Assembly (NCBI GenBank): GCA_021846165.1 | Contig: JAJZCL010000006.1 | Location: 1 to 37,944 of the forward strand | DNA length: 37,944 nt | DNA from: Bacillota bacterium | GTDB taxonomy: Bacteria; Bacillota; Bacilli; Alicyclobacillales; SLC66 | Reading direction: 5' to 3' | Shown: positions 10,809-37,209 of the stretch, in pieces | Layout of the letters: the number at the start of each line of letters is the position of its first letter | Numbering within the stretch: position 1 is the first letter of the stretch | The notes under the pieces: generated by a model | Told to the model about the DNA's origin: nothing | The model's database searches: none | What the model saw: the letters and a program-made list of their open reading frames with translations, nothing else | Program-made: the position numbers and the translations under genes

Positions 10809-10844
10809 AAAAAAAGTCGGGCACAGATCTGCGCCCGACTTTTT
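10809..10844 (-). terminator. Intrinsic terminator after tuf
   Basis: The minus strand reads AAAAAGTCGGGC, a 10-base loop, then GCCCGACTTTTTTT. This gives a 7-bp GC-rich stem that can be extended by A-U pairs, with a run of seven T. It starts 15 bases after the tuf stop codon and closes the str operon. The symmetrical A and T runs mean it could also stop transcription from the other strand. Confidence 0.9.
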
Positions 10845-10858
10845 GACCATCACTTCGC

Positions 10859-12049
10859 TTATTTCGTAATCTCAACCACGACTCCGGCGCCGACCGTGCG
10901 GCCACCTTCGCGAATGGCAAAGCGCGTGCCGTCCTCAATGGCGATCGGCGAAATCAATTCGACGGCCAGCGTCACGTTGTCGCCAGGCATGACCATTTCT
11001 GTGCCGTCCGGAAGTCCGATCACACCCGTCACGTCGGTGGTGCGAAAATAAAACTGTGGGCGATAGTTATTGAAAAAGGGTGTGTGGCGTCCGCCTTCTT
11101 CTTTTTTCAATACGTACACTTGCGCCTTAAACTTGGTGTGGGGTTTGATCGAACCCGGCTTACAAATAACCTGACCGCGCTCGATGTCTTTGCGATCCAC
11201 GCCGCGCAGCAGCGCACCGATGTTGTCGCCCGCTTGCGCAAAGTCGAGCAGCTTGCGGAACATTTCAATGCCCGTGGCCACCGTTTTGCGCGGCATTTCC
11301 TCAAAACCGACAATCTCCACTTCGTCGCCAACCTTAAGCTGTCCGCGTTCCACACGACCCGTCGCCACAGTGCCGCGACCGGTGATGGTGAACACGTCTT
11401 CAACTGGCATCAGGAACGGCTTTTCTGTATCGCGTTCCGGCGTCGGGATGAAGCTGTCCACCGATTCCATCAACTCGTCGATCTTTTTGGCCCAGTCGCC
11501 GTTCGGGTCTTCCAGCGCCTTGAGGGCGGAGCCGCGAATGACCGGCGTGTCATCACCGGGGAATTCGTACTCGCTTAACAGGTCGCGCACTTCCATCTCC
11601 ACGAGTTCCAGCAGTTCTTCGTCATCGACCATGTCGCACTTGTTCATGAACACGACAATGTAGGGAACGCCAACTTGACGCGCGAGCAGAATGTGTTCAC
11701 GCGTTTGCGGCATCGGACCGTCGGTCGCCGACACGACAAGGATCGAACCATCCATTTGCGCGGCGCCGGTAATCATGTTTTTTACATAATCGGCGTGACC
11801 AGGGCAGTCCACGTGGGCATAGTGCCGATTGGGCGTTTCGTATTCCACGTGCGCAGTGTTAATCGTTATGCCACGTTCGCGTTCTTCCGGCGCTTTGTCA
11901 ATCGCGTCGTACGCCATCGCCTGTGCGCCGCCGCGCAAGGAAAGCACCGTGGTAATCGCCGCAGTCAACGTGGTTTTACCGTGGTCGACGTGACCGATCG
12001 TGCCGATGTTTACGTGCGGTTTGTTGCGTTCAAATTTGGCCTTTGCCAA
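10859..12049 (-). CDS. tuf: Translation elongation factor Tu
   Basis: EF-Tu carries aminoacyl-tRNA to the ribosomal A site as a GTP complex. The 396-residue protein has the P-loop GHVDHGKT (residues 19-26), DCPGH (about 81-85), NKCD (about 136-139) and SALK (about 174-177). The tRNA-binding beta-barrel domains 2 and 3 follow, and the protein ends [10 protein letters not shown]. The start is TTG at 12049, ten bases after AAGGAG. No other start codon fits the conserved N-terminus [19 protein letters not shown]. Last gene of the str operon. Confidence 0.98.
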
Positions 12050-23000: not shown

Positions 23001-23029
23001 ATTTTATCATTTGCATAAAATTGAGTCAA
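23001..23029 (-). promoter_or_regulatory. Promoter of rpoB-rpoC (extended -10)
   Basis: TTGACT (23024-23029) and TAAAAT (23001-23006) are separated by 17 bases on the minus strand, and TGA directly before the -10 makes it an extended -10 promoter. The -35 overlaps the stop codon of the methyltransferase gene. It gives rpoBC its own start site. Confidence 0.78.
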
Positions 23030-23643
23030 TCGGAAATATGCTGTTTGGAGCAAGAAAACACGCGATACCCCTTGTCTTTCGCCACCACGTTGACGGCGAA
23101 CCCAATTTCACGCAAACGCTTCTCACTAGATTCAGCGCCTTGTTGTTTCCGAATCACGACGAACAACCGACCGACCCCTCGCAAGCGCGCGTACGCTTCT
23201 TCGTACAAACGAAAAATCACCTGTTTGCCCGCGCGAATCGGCGGATTCAAGGCAATCGTATCAAACAAAGCGGACGCGGGGAGGGCGTCAAACCCGTCGC
23301 CTTGCGCCGCGTCAACACGGCGCTCGACCCGGTTCAGCACCGCATTGCGCAAAGCCAATTCCACCGCGCGCGCGTTGATATCGACCATCGAGACGCGCAG
23401 ATCCGGCGAGGCGACCGCCAAAGCGATGCCGATCGCGCCGTAACCGCAACCAAGATCCAGCAGTGTCCCCGTCGCAAGACTAGGCATGCTTTCAATCAAA
23501 AGCCTTGTGCCTTCGTCAATTCCCCTGCGGCTGAACACGCCGTGATCCGTGAAGAAGGTCAACTCGCGCCCGCGAAGGATCGCGTGCAACGAGTGCGGTT
23601 CCGACTGGCTTTGCGGATGCTCACTAAAATAATGCTCGCTCAC
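23026..23643 (-). CDS. Class I SAM-dependent methyltransferase, RsmC-like (YbxB family)
   Basis: The 205-residue protein has the methyltransferase small domain: the SAM-binding motif LLDLGCGYGAIGIALA (about residues 61-76), the acidic strand VSMVDINARA, and the catalytic motif NPPIRAGK (about 133-140). The NPP-type motif is shared with exocyclic-amine methyltransferases such as RsmC, which modifies 16S rRNA. The exact target here is inferred. The start is GTG behind ACGGAGAAGCAGC. It lies between rplL and rpoB, as ybxB does in B. subtilis, after a terminator-like hairpin. Confidence 0.88.
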   Translation of the reverse strand: MSEHYFSEHPQSQSEPHSLHAILRGRELTFFTDHGVFSRRGIDEGTRLLIESMPSLATGTLLDLGCGYGAIGIALAVASPDLRVSMVDINARAVELALRNAVLNRVERRVDAAQGDGFDALPASALFDTIALNPPIRAGKQVIFRLYEEAYARLRGVGRLFVVIRKQQGAESSEKRLREIGFAVNVVAKDKGYRVFSCSKQHISD

Positions 23644-23660
23644 GCTGCTTCTCCGTCATG

Positions 23661-23687
23661 AAAAGGAGGAGCTATCCCCGCTCCTCC
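23661..23687 (-). terminator. Terminator or attenuator between rplL and the methyltransferase gene
   Basis: GGAGGAGC and GCTCCTCC form a perfect 8-bp stem around a 7-base loop, followed by TTTT. It starts about 20 bases after the rplL stop. The short T-run suggests partial termination, which would lower expression of the downstream gene relative to rplJL. Confidence 0.75.
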
Positions 23688-23708
23688 CCGATTCTCATCT
23701 TCCGAACT

Positions 23709-24605: not shown

Positions 24606-24621
24606 TCGTACACCTCCTTAC

Positions 24622-24660
24622 AAAAATCGACCGACCTTCGCCGCAGGCGAAGACCGGCCG
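24622..24660 (-). terminator. Attenuator hairpin in the rplJ leader
   Basis: The minus strand reads CGGCCGGTCTTCGCC, TGC, then GGCGAAGGTCGGTCG and ATTTTT. The long stem and T-run make an intrinsic terminator between the L10-binding region and the rplJ ribosome site. This is the arrangement of Bacillus L10 leaders, where transcription attenuation is expected. Confidence 0.8.
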
Positions 24661-24775
24661 TTTGACAGTTAGACACTAACGCTCCAACGTTCATTCCGTT
24701 CCGTGTCGTCTACCTCGGCAGGTCAACTTGAATTAAGCCGTTACCGGCACCTGCTGTCTACAGTATCGAAACATA
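24661..24775 (-). ncRNA. L10 leader (ribosomal protein L10-binding element)
   Basis: The leader contains the conserved pieces of the L10 leader family in order: CTGTAGACAGCAGGTGCC, then GGCTTAATTCAAG, then CCTGCCGAGGTA (24708-24763 in total). L10, with L12, binds this RNA when in excess and lowers expression of rplJL. The neighbouring attenuator supports this. Assigned by motif recognition only, without a covariance search. Confidence 0.85.
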
Positions 24776-24783
24776 CCTTATGC

Positions 24784-27226: not shown

Positions 27227-27871
27227 TTACGCCAGACGATCCTCCAGGTACTTCTCCAGCTTGCGTTTGACACGCTGCAAGGCGTTGTCAATCGACTTCA
27301 CGTGCCGACACAAATCGACCGCAATCTCCTGGTAAGAGCGACCATCCAAGTACAGCATCAACACCTTGCGTTCCAGTTCGCTCAAAAGTTCACGCATCTT
27401 GTACTCAATATCAGCAAACTCTTCTTGATGAATGATCAACTCTTCAGGGTCTGCGACACGCACACCGCCGATCACGTCCAGCAGCGTACGATCAGAATCC
27501 TCGTCATAGATCGGCTTATCCAGCGAGATATAGGAATTGAGCGGCACATGCTTCTGTCTCGTCGCCGTCTTGATAGCCGTAATAATCTGGCGCGTGATGC
27601 AGAGTTCCGCAAACGCCTTGAATGACGCCAGCTTATCGTCCCGGTAGTCGCGAATGGCCTTATATAAGCCAATCATCCCTTCCTGAACAATGTCCTCGCG
27701 ATCCGCCCCGATCAGAAAATACGACCGCGCCTTGCCCCTGACAAAACTCTTGTACTTGTGAATCAAATACTCCAATGCTTCCCCGTTACCTACCCGTACG
27801 AATTCAACTAAATCTTCATCCGGGACGTCTTCCAGACCTTGCTCGTACTGAGGTGAAATTTCCACAGACAC
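27227..27871 (-). CDS. sigH: RNA polymerase sigma factor SigH (Spo0H)
   Basis: SigH directs transcription of early stationary-phase, competence and sporulation genes in Bacilli. The 214-residue protein has the region 2 core with DIVQEGMIGLYKAIRDYR (about 61-78) and region 4 with the helix-turn-helix SYQEIAVDLCRHVKSIDNAL (about 180-199). The N-terminus SPQYEQGLEDVPDEDLVEFV is typical of SigH. The start is GTG behind a GGGGG stretch. It has its own promoter with a perfect inverted repeat. It marks the organism as a likely spore former. Confidence 0.95.
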   Translation of the reverse strand: MSVEISPQYEQGLEDVPDEDLVEFVRVGNGEALEYLIHKYKSFVRGKARSYFLIGADREDIVQEGMIGLYKAIRDYRDDKLASFKAFAELCITRQIITAIKTATRQKHVPLNSYISLDKPIYDEDSDRTLLDVIGGVRVADPEELIIHQEEFADIEYKMRELLSELERKVLMLYLDGRSYQEIAVDLCRHVKSIDNALQRVKRKLEKYLEDRLA

Positions 27872-27889
27872 CGCTATCCCCCCGGAAGT

Positions 27890-27925
27890 AAATCTAGTAA
27901 CCGATAACGTCAGTATACTAGATTT
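27890..27925. repeat. Perfect 10-bp inverted repeat at the sigH promoter
   Basis: AAATCTAGTA (27890-27899) and TACTAGATTT (27916-27925) are exact inverted copies, with 16 bases between. One arm overlaps the end of the -10 box and the promoter spacer; the other lies just downstream of the expected start site. Because the upstream arm is largely not transcribed, it looks like a protein-binding operator and not an RNA hairpin. Confidence 0.75.
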
Positions 27926-27941
27926 CTTCCAGCAGGGTCAA
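27912..27941 (-). promoter_or_regulatory. Promoter of sigH
   Basis: TTGACC (27936-27941) and TATACT (27912-27917) are separated by 18 bases. Both are five-of-six matches to the vegetative consensus. The start of transcription should be near 27905. An inverted repeat straddles the -10, so repression of this promoter is likely. Confidence 0.75.
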
Positions 27942-27976
27942 TTGAGGAAACGGTGACATAAGGACGGACGATTTAA

Positions 27977-28903
27977 TTAGACACTCTGCTGGCGCACCGC
28001 TTCATACAACAAAACAGCCGCCGCAACACTCGCATTTAAAGACTGAATTTGACCACGCATTGGCAGCTTAACTAAAAAATCGCATTTTTCTGCTACCAAA
28101 CGACTGATTCCATTTCCCTCGCTGCCGATGACGAATACAAGCGGCCCTGTCATATCCATTTGCCAGTACTGTTCCTTGGCCGACGCATCAGCGCCGATCA
28201 CCCAGTAACCGTACTCCTTGAGTTCCGCAATCGCCTGCGTCAGATTCGCCACCCGCGCGACCGGCACGTGTTCCATCGCACCTGCCGATGACTTGGCGAC
28301 CGTCCCCGTCAGCGGCACCGCTCTGCGTTTCGGGATGACGACCCCCGCCGCGCCTGCGCCGTCCGCCGAGCGCAGAATCGCACCGAAATTTTGCGGATCA
28401 ACGATCCCGTCAAGCAGGAGAATGATGCTGTTTTTCTTCGCTTTTGCGCACGCGATCAACTCGTCCAATTCCACATACTCTTTCGCTGCCATATACGCAA
28501 GTAGACCCTGGTGCGCGGAGCGGTTTGACAACTCGTCCAGTTTCGCCTTCGAAACCGTTTGCACAAACGCCCCCTGCGCTTTCACGTCGTTGATGATTTC
28601 TCCGACCGAACCGTGAATCAGCCCCTCTTGCACCAACAGCTTGTTGATCGGGCGTTTGCTTTTGATTGCCTCAATGATGGCGCGTCGACCCACAACATAC
28701 TCAATCGGTGGCGCCTCTTTGGCCGCTTCCTCGCGCCGCGGGGCGCCGCGCCCCACCCGTACAGCACGCTTGCCGTCACTGCGTTTCGGCATGCCGTCAC
28801 GTCGGCGCCGTGCGCCACTCCGTTCTCGTTCCCCGCCTTCGGACGATCCGCCCACTGTCCCCCTGCTCCTGCGGCCTTGCGGCTTTCCTAGCGAACGATT
28901 CAA
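27977..28903 (-). CDS. rlmB: 23S rRNA 2'-O-methyltransferase RlmB-like (SpoU/TrmH family)
   Basis: RlmB methylates the ribose of a guanosine in 23S rRNA. The 308-residue protein has about 65 basic, low-complexity N-terminal residues, then a substrate-binding domain (EYVVGRRAIIEAIKSKRP). The SPOUT knot motifs follow: DPQNFGAILRSADGAGAAG (about 163-181), FVIGSEGNGISRL (about 247-259) and the C-terminal SLNASVAAAVLLYEAVRQ. The TTG at 28903 is seven bases after GGAGG and overlaps the mrnC stop (TTGA). The B. subtilis homologue is shorter, near 249 residues. Unlike B. subtilis, no yacP gene follows. Confidence 0.93.
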   Translation of the reverse strand: MNRSLGKPQGRRSRGTVGGSSEGGERERSGARRRRDGMPKRSDGKRAVRVGRGAPRREEAAKEAPPIEYVVGRRAIIEAIKSKRPINKLLVQEGLIHGSVGEIINDVKAQGAFVQTVSKAKLDELSNRSAHQGLLAYMAAKEYVELDELIACAKAKKNSIILLLDGIVDPQNFGAILRSADGAGAAGVVIPKRRAVPLTGTVAKSSAGAMEHVPVARVANLTQAIAELKEYGYWVIGADASAKEQYWQMDMTGPLVFVIGSEGNGISRLVAEKCDFLVKLPMRGQIQSLNASVAAAVLLYEAVRQQSV

Positions 28904-36132: not shown

Positions 36133-37209
36133 TTACAAATTGCGTTCGAGAAACACCTGCTCCTGCATGCGACGAAGCCCGTCTTTAATCGCCCTGGCGC
36201 GGATTGCGCCGATGCCTTCCACATCGTCCAACTCCTCCACAGAGGCGTTGACAATTTTGCCGAGGGTATTAAATTCTTCTGTCAGATTATCGATAATCGG
36301 TTGCGGCAATCGCGGAATTTTGTGCAAAATTCGATACCCTCTCGACGAAACGCCCATTTCCGCTAAATTTCCCGTACCTGAATAACCAAGCGCATGCGCG
36401 ATCACTGCCGAGTTAAGCACCTCGTCCTGCTTCAGAGCGTGTACGGCAGACAAGATTTGGTGCGGCGTCAGTTCGTGCCCGTCCGCCGAATAGTCCTTGA
36501 CGAGCAGGTACGCCTCCTCGTCCACCCTCGCCACCAACTCGTCGAGTTGCATCGCGACCAACCGCCCTTCTGACCCCAACTCGGTAATGTAGCGCTTGAT
36601 CTCCGCCTTGATCCGCAACACCATCTCAAAACGCTGCAAGACGTGCACCACATCCTGAAGCGACACCATTTCATCCATTTCCAGCGCCGACAGACTCGTC
36701 AGCGCCGTGTCGAGTACGGTTTTGTAGCGCTCCAGCGTCTGAATGGCCTGATTCGCCTTCGTGATGATCACGCTGATTTCTTTTAAAGAATAGCGGATGT
36801 CACCCTGATACAGCGTGATCACGTTGCGCCGCTGCGACACGCATACCACGAGTCGCTTGGTCTGAATGGCCACCCGCTCCGCCGTGCGATGCCGGGTGCC
36901 CGTCTCGTTGCTAGGGATTGCAGGATCGGGATTCAATTGTGTATTGGCGTACAAAATGCGCTTCGCATCCTCGCTGAGAATGATCGCGCCGTCCATTTTT
37001 GCCAGTTCGTACAGTCCAGCGGGCGTAAAGTCGCAATTGATCGAAAACCCGCCGTCCGCCATCGCCGCCACCTCATCATCATACCCGATCAAGATCAAAC
37101 CGCCGGTCTTCGCCCGCAGCACATTGTCCACACCCTCGCGAATCGGGGTTCCCGGCGCCACCATGCGCAGCATTTTCATCATCATCGATTCGCGTTTTGA
37201 TTCGTCCAC
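36133..37209 (-). CDS. disA: Diadenylate cyclase DisA (DNA integrity scanning protein)
   Basis: DisA joins two ATP into cyclic di-AMP and stops doing so at branched DNA, reporting damage before sporulation. The 358-residue protein has the DAC domain with the DGA motif at 73-75 (MDGAIILSED) and the RHR motif at 106-108 (GTRHRTAER). A helical middle and a C-terminal helix-hairpin-helix DNA-binding domain follow (VEELDDVEGIGAIRARAIKD). The start is GTG at 37209, with GGAGGGG supplied by the radA end. It is separated from radA by three bases. Confidence 0.97.
   Translation of the reverse strand: MDESKRESMMMKMLRMVAPGTPIREGVDNVLRAKTGGLILIGYDDEVAAMADGGFSINCDFTPAGLYELAKMDGAIILSEDAKRILYANTQLNPDPAIPSNETGTRHRTAERVAIQTKRLVVCVSQRRNVITLYQGDIRYSLKEISVIITKANQAIQTLERYKTVLDTALTSLSALEMDEMVSLQDVVHVLQRFEMVLRIKAEIKRYITELGSEGRLVAMQLDELVARVDEEAYLLVKDYSADGHELTPHQILSAVHALKQDEVLNSAVIAHALGYSGTGNLAEMGVSSRGYRILHKIPRLPQPIIDNLTEEFNTLGKIVNASVEELDDVEGIGAIRARAIKDGLRRMQEQVFLERNL

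Follow-up and report, generated by a model that had tools for sequence, protein, structure and literature searches.

What is a perfect 10-bp inverted repeat doing across the promoter of sigH, the gene for a sporulation sigma factor? An earlier note on this DNA suggested that a regulator of sporulation entry other than AbrB might act there. Our analysis points instead to an RNA hairpin that the promoter itself would cut in two, with consequences for which sigH messages are translated. We use "the window" for the whole stretch of 37,944 nucleotides that was analysed.

The repeat and its surroundings

The gene is identified as sigH by two NCBIfam models, NF006148 (392.8 bits) and TIGR02859 (368.3 bits), both above cut-off. 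Its start, -10 and -35 elements and 18-base spacer are as the earlier note implied, and the features on which the argument depends are these:

27227..27871, minus strand: sigH coding sequence (sporulation sigma factor), with a GTG start at 27871
27878..27883, minus strand: Shine-Dalgarno (SD) run GGGGGG, five of its six bases paired in the predicted read-through fold
27890-27899, minus strand: 3' arm core, TACTAGATTT as read on this strand, within the sigH leader
about 27905, minus strand: transcription start expected from the -10 element, at the edge of the hairpin loop
27912..27917, minus strand: -10 element TATACT, 18 bases from the -35 element
27916-27925, minus strand: 5' arm core, AAATCTAGTA as read on this strand, in the promoter spacer and the first two -10 bases
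27936..27941, minus strand: -35 element TTGACC, whose last C pairs, with the next two bases, with the SD in the predicted fold
27878..27936, minus strand: whole predicted hairpin, with its 5' side at 27936-27910, loop at 27909-27905 and 3' side at 27904-27878
27977..28903, minus strand: rlmB, the gene upstream of sigH (TIGR00186, 260 bits), its stop 35 bases from the -35 element

On the forward strand, AAATCTAGTA lies at 27890-27899 and TACTAGATTT at 27916-27925, two exact arms of 10 bases with a gap of 16, so that the repeat at 27890-27925 is precisely the one that had been claimed. The claimed placement of the arms is also correct, one of them taking up the -10-proximal spacer and two -10 bases and the other lying past the expected start. 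The further claim that such a repeat is unlikely by chance does not hold. The window contains four perfect inverted repeats with arms of at least 10 bases and gaps of 3-40, whereas 20 dinucleotide-shuffled versions of it hold 1.65 on average (range 0-4), and we therefore reject the rarity of the 10-base repeat by itself as an argument. What goes beyond chance is the larger structure around the repeat, not the 10-base repeat alone. The other perfect repeats of the window are at 10811-10844 (arms of 12), 11068-11112 (10) and 36765-36821 (11).

A predicted hairpin split by the promoter

The RNA of the sigH strand from 27945 to 27860 is predicted to fold at -33.6 kcal/mol (z -4.19), and none of 200 shuffles was as stable. 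In this fold the repeat is the core of a longer stem. On the inner side the stem continues with ACUGA paired to UCGGU; on the outer side, past one-base bulges, GGAAG pairs with CUUCC and then CCU at the -35 end with the SD. The promoter itself supplies the 5' strand (the last -35 base, most of the spacer and five of the six -10 bases), and the sigH leader as far as the SD run supplies the 3' strand. When 37 ORF starts of the window, picked by a simple rule, were ranked against single-base shuffles, the sigH start had the most negative structure z (-4.59). The second strongest value, -4.02, belongs to the start of the ORF at 23026-23643; just upstream of it, at 23650-23700 on the minus strand, a GC-rich hairpin is followed by a T run and looks like an ordinary terminator after the preceding gene, which from gene order we take to be rplL. 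Rfam covariance models matched nothing in 27600-28200 at E values up to 1, and in the window as a whole they matched only RF00557, the leader of ribosomal protein L10, at 24613-24781 (minus strand, 49 bits).

Since the expected start lies in the loop, both arms would be present only in RNA that reads through from rlmB, and RNA from the sigH promoter would carry the 3' arm alone. The promoter falls within or beside the 5' strand, and its RNA, begun at the start expected from the -10 element, would lack that strand. The earlier note had contrasted its operator with a plain RNA hairpin holding both arms in the transcript; this description fits the read-through RNA and, with the start placed as above, does not fit the promoter RNA. 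We also considered an intrinsic terminator and rejected it, as the stem has no U run, ends in the SD followed by AUAGCG and is absent from the terminator scan. Between the rlmB stop and the -35 element, the scan listed no terminator-like site on the minus strand, and no U-tailed hairpin was found there.

On balance we favour, with some reserve, the reading in which the sigH promoter cuts an RNA hairpin in two, with the repeat forming its stem, and this hairpin would act as a translational insulator of the T4 lysozyme type. Upstream of rlmB on the same strand are a 159-aa ORF, cysS and cysE; the ORF is by position probably mrnC, and it has no NCBIfam match at E 1e-5. RNA running in from cysE, cysS, the probable mrnC and rlmB would hold both arms and fold, pairing the SD with bases beside the -35 element, and little SigH would be made from it. 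RNA from the sigH promoter would start in the loop and, without the 5' arm, would leave the SD more open, so that SigH would be made mainly when its own promoter fires. That read-through RNA is present in useful amounts, that transcription starts where expected and that the pairing lowers translation are the parts of this mechanism that we infer.

The predicted exposure of the SD agrees with such a difference, its mean unpaired probability in the window rising from 0.07 in read-through RNA to 0.52 in promoter RNA (from 0.06 to 0.39 with shorter flanks). Shuffling gives a less favourable picture. With the window spacer shuffled the mean SD exposure was 0.13, and 35% of the shuffles were as low as the observed 0.07; with the leader shuffled it was 0.10, and 38% were as low. 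As the SD stays nearly as hidden after shuffling, the perfect repeat of the window adds stability more than it adds hiding of the SD, and this result counts against the insulator reading.

Leaders with the predicted hairpin in related genomes

The window's family (f1) comprises 18 genomes, and a SigH search at E 1e-70 found the protein in 16 of them and not in G001 or G004. The second of these is 92% complete, and either loss of sigH or an assembly gap could account for its result. Nine short sigH leaders are predicted to fold alike, three each from the window's genus (g1), from Sulfoacidibacillus (g3) and from a third genus (g7). All nine aligned leaders have TTGACC-N18-TATACT, and in all nine the lowest-energy read-through fold pairs bases of the -35 end with the SD. 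These leaders were picked after the sequences had been seen and are related to one another, and the statistics on them are not blind.

The earlier note had proposed an alignment of the sigH upstream region of relatives, and in that alignment the pairing is retained in three genera with differing arm sequences and gaps. The core of S. thermotolerans is TCTATCAT/ATGATAGA with a gap of 24, compared with AAATCTAGTA/TACTAGATTT and a gap of 16 in the window, and the g7 core is GAATCCATCA/TGATAGATTC, with one C-A mismatch in 10 bases and a gap of 21. The core of G002 contains a mismatch, and in G005 one pair is broken. We scored the pairing on a MAFFT alignment (A1) that was not fitted to the structure and has nine rows, eight of them distinct, using shuffles that ignore kinship. 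Four of the ten core pairs have changed on both sides, a count reached by 15 of 500 shuffles, and the core pairing (78.4% of cells) and covariation score (0.264) were each reached by none of the 500; registers slid by 1-3 bases give at most one both-sided pair. For the 20-pair structure there are again four both-sided pairs (19 of 500 shuffles), with 81.8% pairing and a score reached by one of 500, and here the register slid by one still has three both-sided pairs against four. Because the rows are related, the both-sided change events are few. Among the kept pairs are several G-U pairs, a kind that can form only in RNA of sigH sense, and the sense strand outfolds the antisense strand in eight of the nine leaders; both observations suit a transcript of the sigH strand more than a site in the DNA.

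A covariance model built from the nine leaders finds those nine and a weak match at sigH in G008 (25.6 bits, E 0.01), and no other match at E 0.1 in 61 genomes under strict filters; it has one match in the window. In a tree of SigH and RlmB, g3 groups with g7 (94/98, just below the mark for firm support) and g1 is unplaced, so that one origin of the hairpin and two are both compatible with the tree.

For comparison, 98 of 111 sigH loci across Bacilli were scored by a single rule; the 13 dropped comprised seven in which the 260 bases searched gave no promoter match, three duplicates and three identical loci. The SD is predicted to be less exposed in read-through RNA in every one of the nine hairpin leaders (for example 0.07 against 0.67, or 0.01 against 0.18), although in the g7 leaders it is poorly exposed already in promoter RNA (0.17-0.23). 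A read-through exposure of at most 0.15 together with a difference of at least 0.15 occurs in all nine, compared with 6 of the 89 other leaders, and a drop of at least 0.3 in six of the nine and 12 of the 89. When the spacer was shuffled, the mean z was -2.5 for the hairpin leaders against -0.44 for the others, and fold energy reached p<=0.02 in three of nine and four of 89. Mann-Whitney comparisons of the nine with the 89 gave p 4e-5 and 7e-5, values that take account neither of kinship nor of how the nine were chosen. A second run used 300 shuffles and longer flanks on eight of the nine leaders, L009 being left out as identical to L008: spacer shuffles gave an energy fraction of at most 0.01 in five of the eight, and leader shuffles a fraction of at most 0.013 in four, with 0.27 for S. 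thermotolerans. The shuffle tests of single leaders are mixed. What computation shows is the anatomy of the site, the fold predicted for it, the persistence of this fold through compensating changes in three genera and, by prediction, an SD that is less exposed in read-through than in promoter RNA.

The sequence between rlmB and sigH also varies in the family. The distance from the rlmB stop to the -35 element is 35-43 bases in the six genomes of g1 and g3, where no U-tailed hairpin is stronger than -10.9 kcal/mol; the g7 genomes are intermediate, with 95-421 bases and hairpins of -11.9 to -13.5. Four of the six family genomes that have rlmB upstream and no promoter-split hairpin carry a U-tailed hairpin of -12.9 to -21.4; at a threshold of -12 kcal/mol or lower, L005, L006, L015 and L016 have one and L032 and L007 do not, compared with one of the nine hairpin genomes (L010, -13.5; the best in L008 and L009 is -11.9 and in L013 -10.9). 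G010, whose 1,500 upstream bases showed no rlmB, was left unscored. The data fit the replacement of a terminator by a promoter-split hairpin, and a trade-off between terminator and hairpin is only partly upheld in the family. In the Alicyclobacillaceae L017, L020 and L025 the preceding gene, which from gene order we take to be yacP, ends 3-8 bases before the -35 element; no terminator was found there, and these loci lack the predicted exposure difference of the hairpin leaders. These loci, with neither hairpin nor terminator, indicate that insulation is not a general need.

A separate observation concerns the promoter spacer of other relatives. Of 57 sigH genes, 38 have a near-invariant spacer, TTACATAATGTATAMT, in the 400 bases before them when up to one mismatch is allowed; it is usually present as one copy per genome and contains the dyad TACAT-A-ATGTA. 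Loci that have it include L005, L015-L022 and L024-L027; it is also present in G055 and G058, on contigs with no placed full sigH, and in six further matches elsewhere. It is absent at sigH from all nine hairpin genomes and from ten others. Among 80 named loci, a set that includes two duplicating hairpin genomes, 35 have the strict form near sigH, and it occurs nowhere else in 513,888 strand-bases. In L007 (G011) the spacer motif and -35 element lie about 300 bases upstream of sigH, much farther than in sister genera. Apart from the hairpin, TTACATAATGTATAMT is a candidate for the site of a dedicated conserved regulator or for a promoter of unusual type.

Competing explanations and known systems

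The insulator reading has to be weighed against the possibility that the pairing is a functionless accident of conserved promoter and leader sequence. We consider this unlikely, though it is the most probable of the alternatives: about 1.65 perfect repeats with arms of at least 10 bases are expected per window, a G-rich SD and the C run past the -35 element pair easily, the SD of the window remains hidden after either spacer or leader is shuffled, and spacer shuffling reached p<=0.02 in just three of nine leaders. Against it are the compensating changes in the alignment, the retention of pairing in nine leaders despite different arms, the top rank of the sigH start for structure z in the window, and the difference between the nine and the 89 other sigH leaders (Mann-Whitney, kinship uncorrected).

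A protein operator, as the earlier note had in mind, would have a dimeric repressor bind both arms and block the sigH promoter at transcription. That repressor would be one other than AbrB, which is not known to have a strict palindrome. Repressor sites typically span the -10 element and the start, as this repeat does, and its arms are perfect in the window genome. But the suggested genome search for the same palindrome returned one place only, both for the arms with up to three mismatches at a gap of 16 and for exact arms with gaps of 10-22 (own assembly, 1.79 Mb, 83.3% complete), and half-site sequence and gap (16, 21, 24) drift between genera with pairing kept. The pairing moreover runs through bulges into the SD, and G-U pairs are kept. 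Conserved half-sites and further genomic copies were thus both lacking, and the operator is not supported; a repressor dedicated to one site is possible, and overall we regard this explanation as improbable. Of the earlier proposal, the regulatory role gains support from retention in three genera, while the protein operator does not agree with a single site whose arms and gaps drift. Least probable, in our judgement, is that the hairpin serves chiefly in the processing or decay of read-through RNA, as an RNase III or Mini-III site at which the incoming message is cut or destroyed. Some 20 base pairs with small bulges would suit such a site, yet the SD is paired in all nine leaders, which cutting alone does not need.

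The translational insulator that we favour has precedents. For T4 gene e (lysozyme) and I-TevI, the available text of two papers describes a long RNA that hides the SD and an RNA, begun at a late promoter a short way upstream, that has no 5' strand and is translated, with about 100-fold less lysozyme made from the long e transcripts (PMC3014915, PMC2988022). As predicted here, RNA started upstream hides the SD and RNA from a nearby promoter lacks the 5' strand; unlike those cases, the present one concerns a sporulation sigma gene on a bacterial chromosome, has a promoter of the usual -35/-10 kind and is a computational prediction. In Staphylococcus aureus, according to the part of the report available to us, a 13-base perfect inverted repeat immediately before the sigH start codon is proposed to hide the ribosome site, and plasmid experiments showed that it limits translation of SigH; with half of the repeat deleted on a plasmid, SigH was on in every cell while the mRNA level stayed similar (PMC3486894). 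The sigma-factor gene has the same name there and a perfect repeat also lies near its ribosome site, but that repeat is described as 5' UTR, and the same part of the report does not describe a promoter split. Together, the T4 and S. aureus cases mean that the design, and the hiding of the SD at a sigH, were already known; our search of open-licence papers found no report of the present element or of a promoter split at a sigH. In B. subtilis, as far as the accessible portion of the source tells, AbrB controls sigH at entry into stationary phase (PMC9931155), which is control of the same gene by a DNA-binding repressor.

More tentatively, and at less than even confidence, a chromosomal version of the T4 lysozyme design may silence a sporulation sigma factor in housekeeping read-through RNA, in a lineage that would have rewritten a spacer almost fixed in most related Bacilli and exchanged an upstream terminator for a promoter-split hairpin. 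The S. aureus repeat and the present hairpin also raise the question of whether hiding of the sigH ribosome site arose more than once. In this genome and in its relatives sigH lies directly behind housekeeping genes, and cells may therefore need some means of keeping run-on transcription from yielding a sporulation sigma factor. If the insulator reading is true, this would be terminator-free insulation on a bacterial chromosome, and it would follow a simple rule, in which the message from sigH's own promoter is translated and the run-on message is silent.
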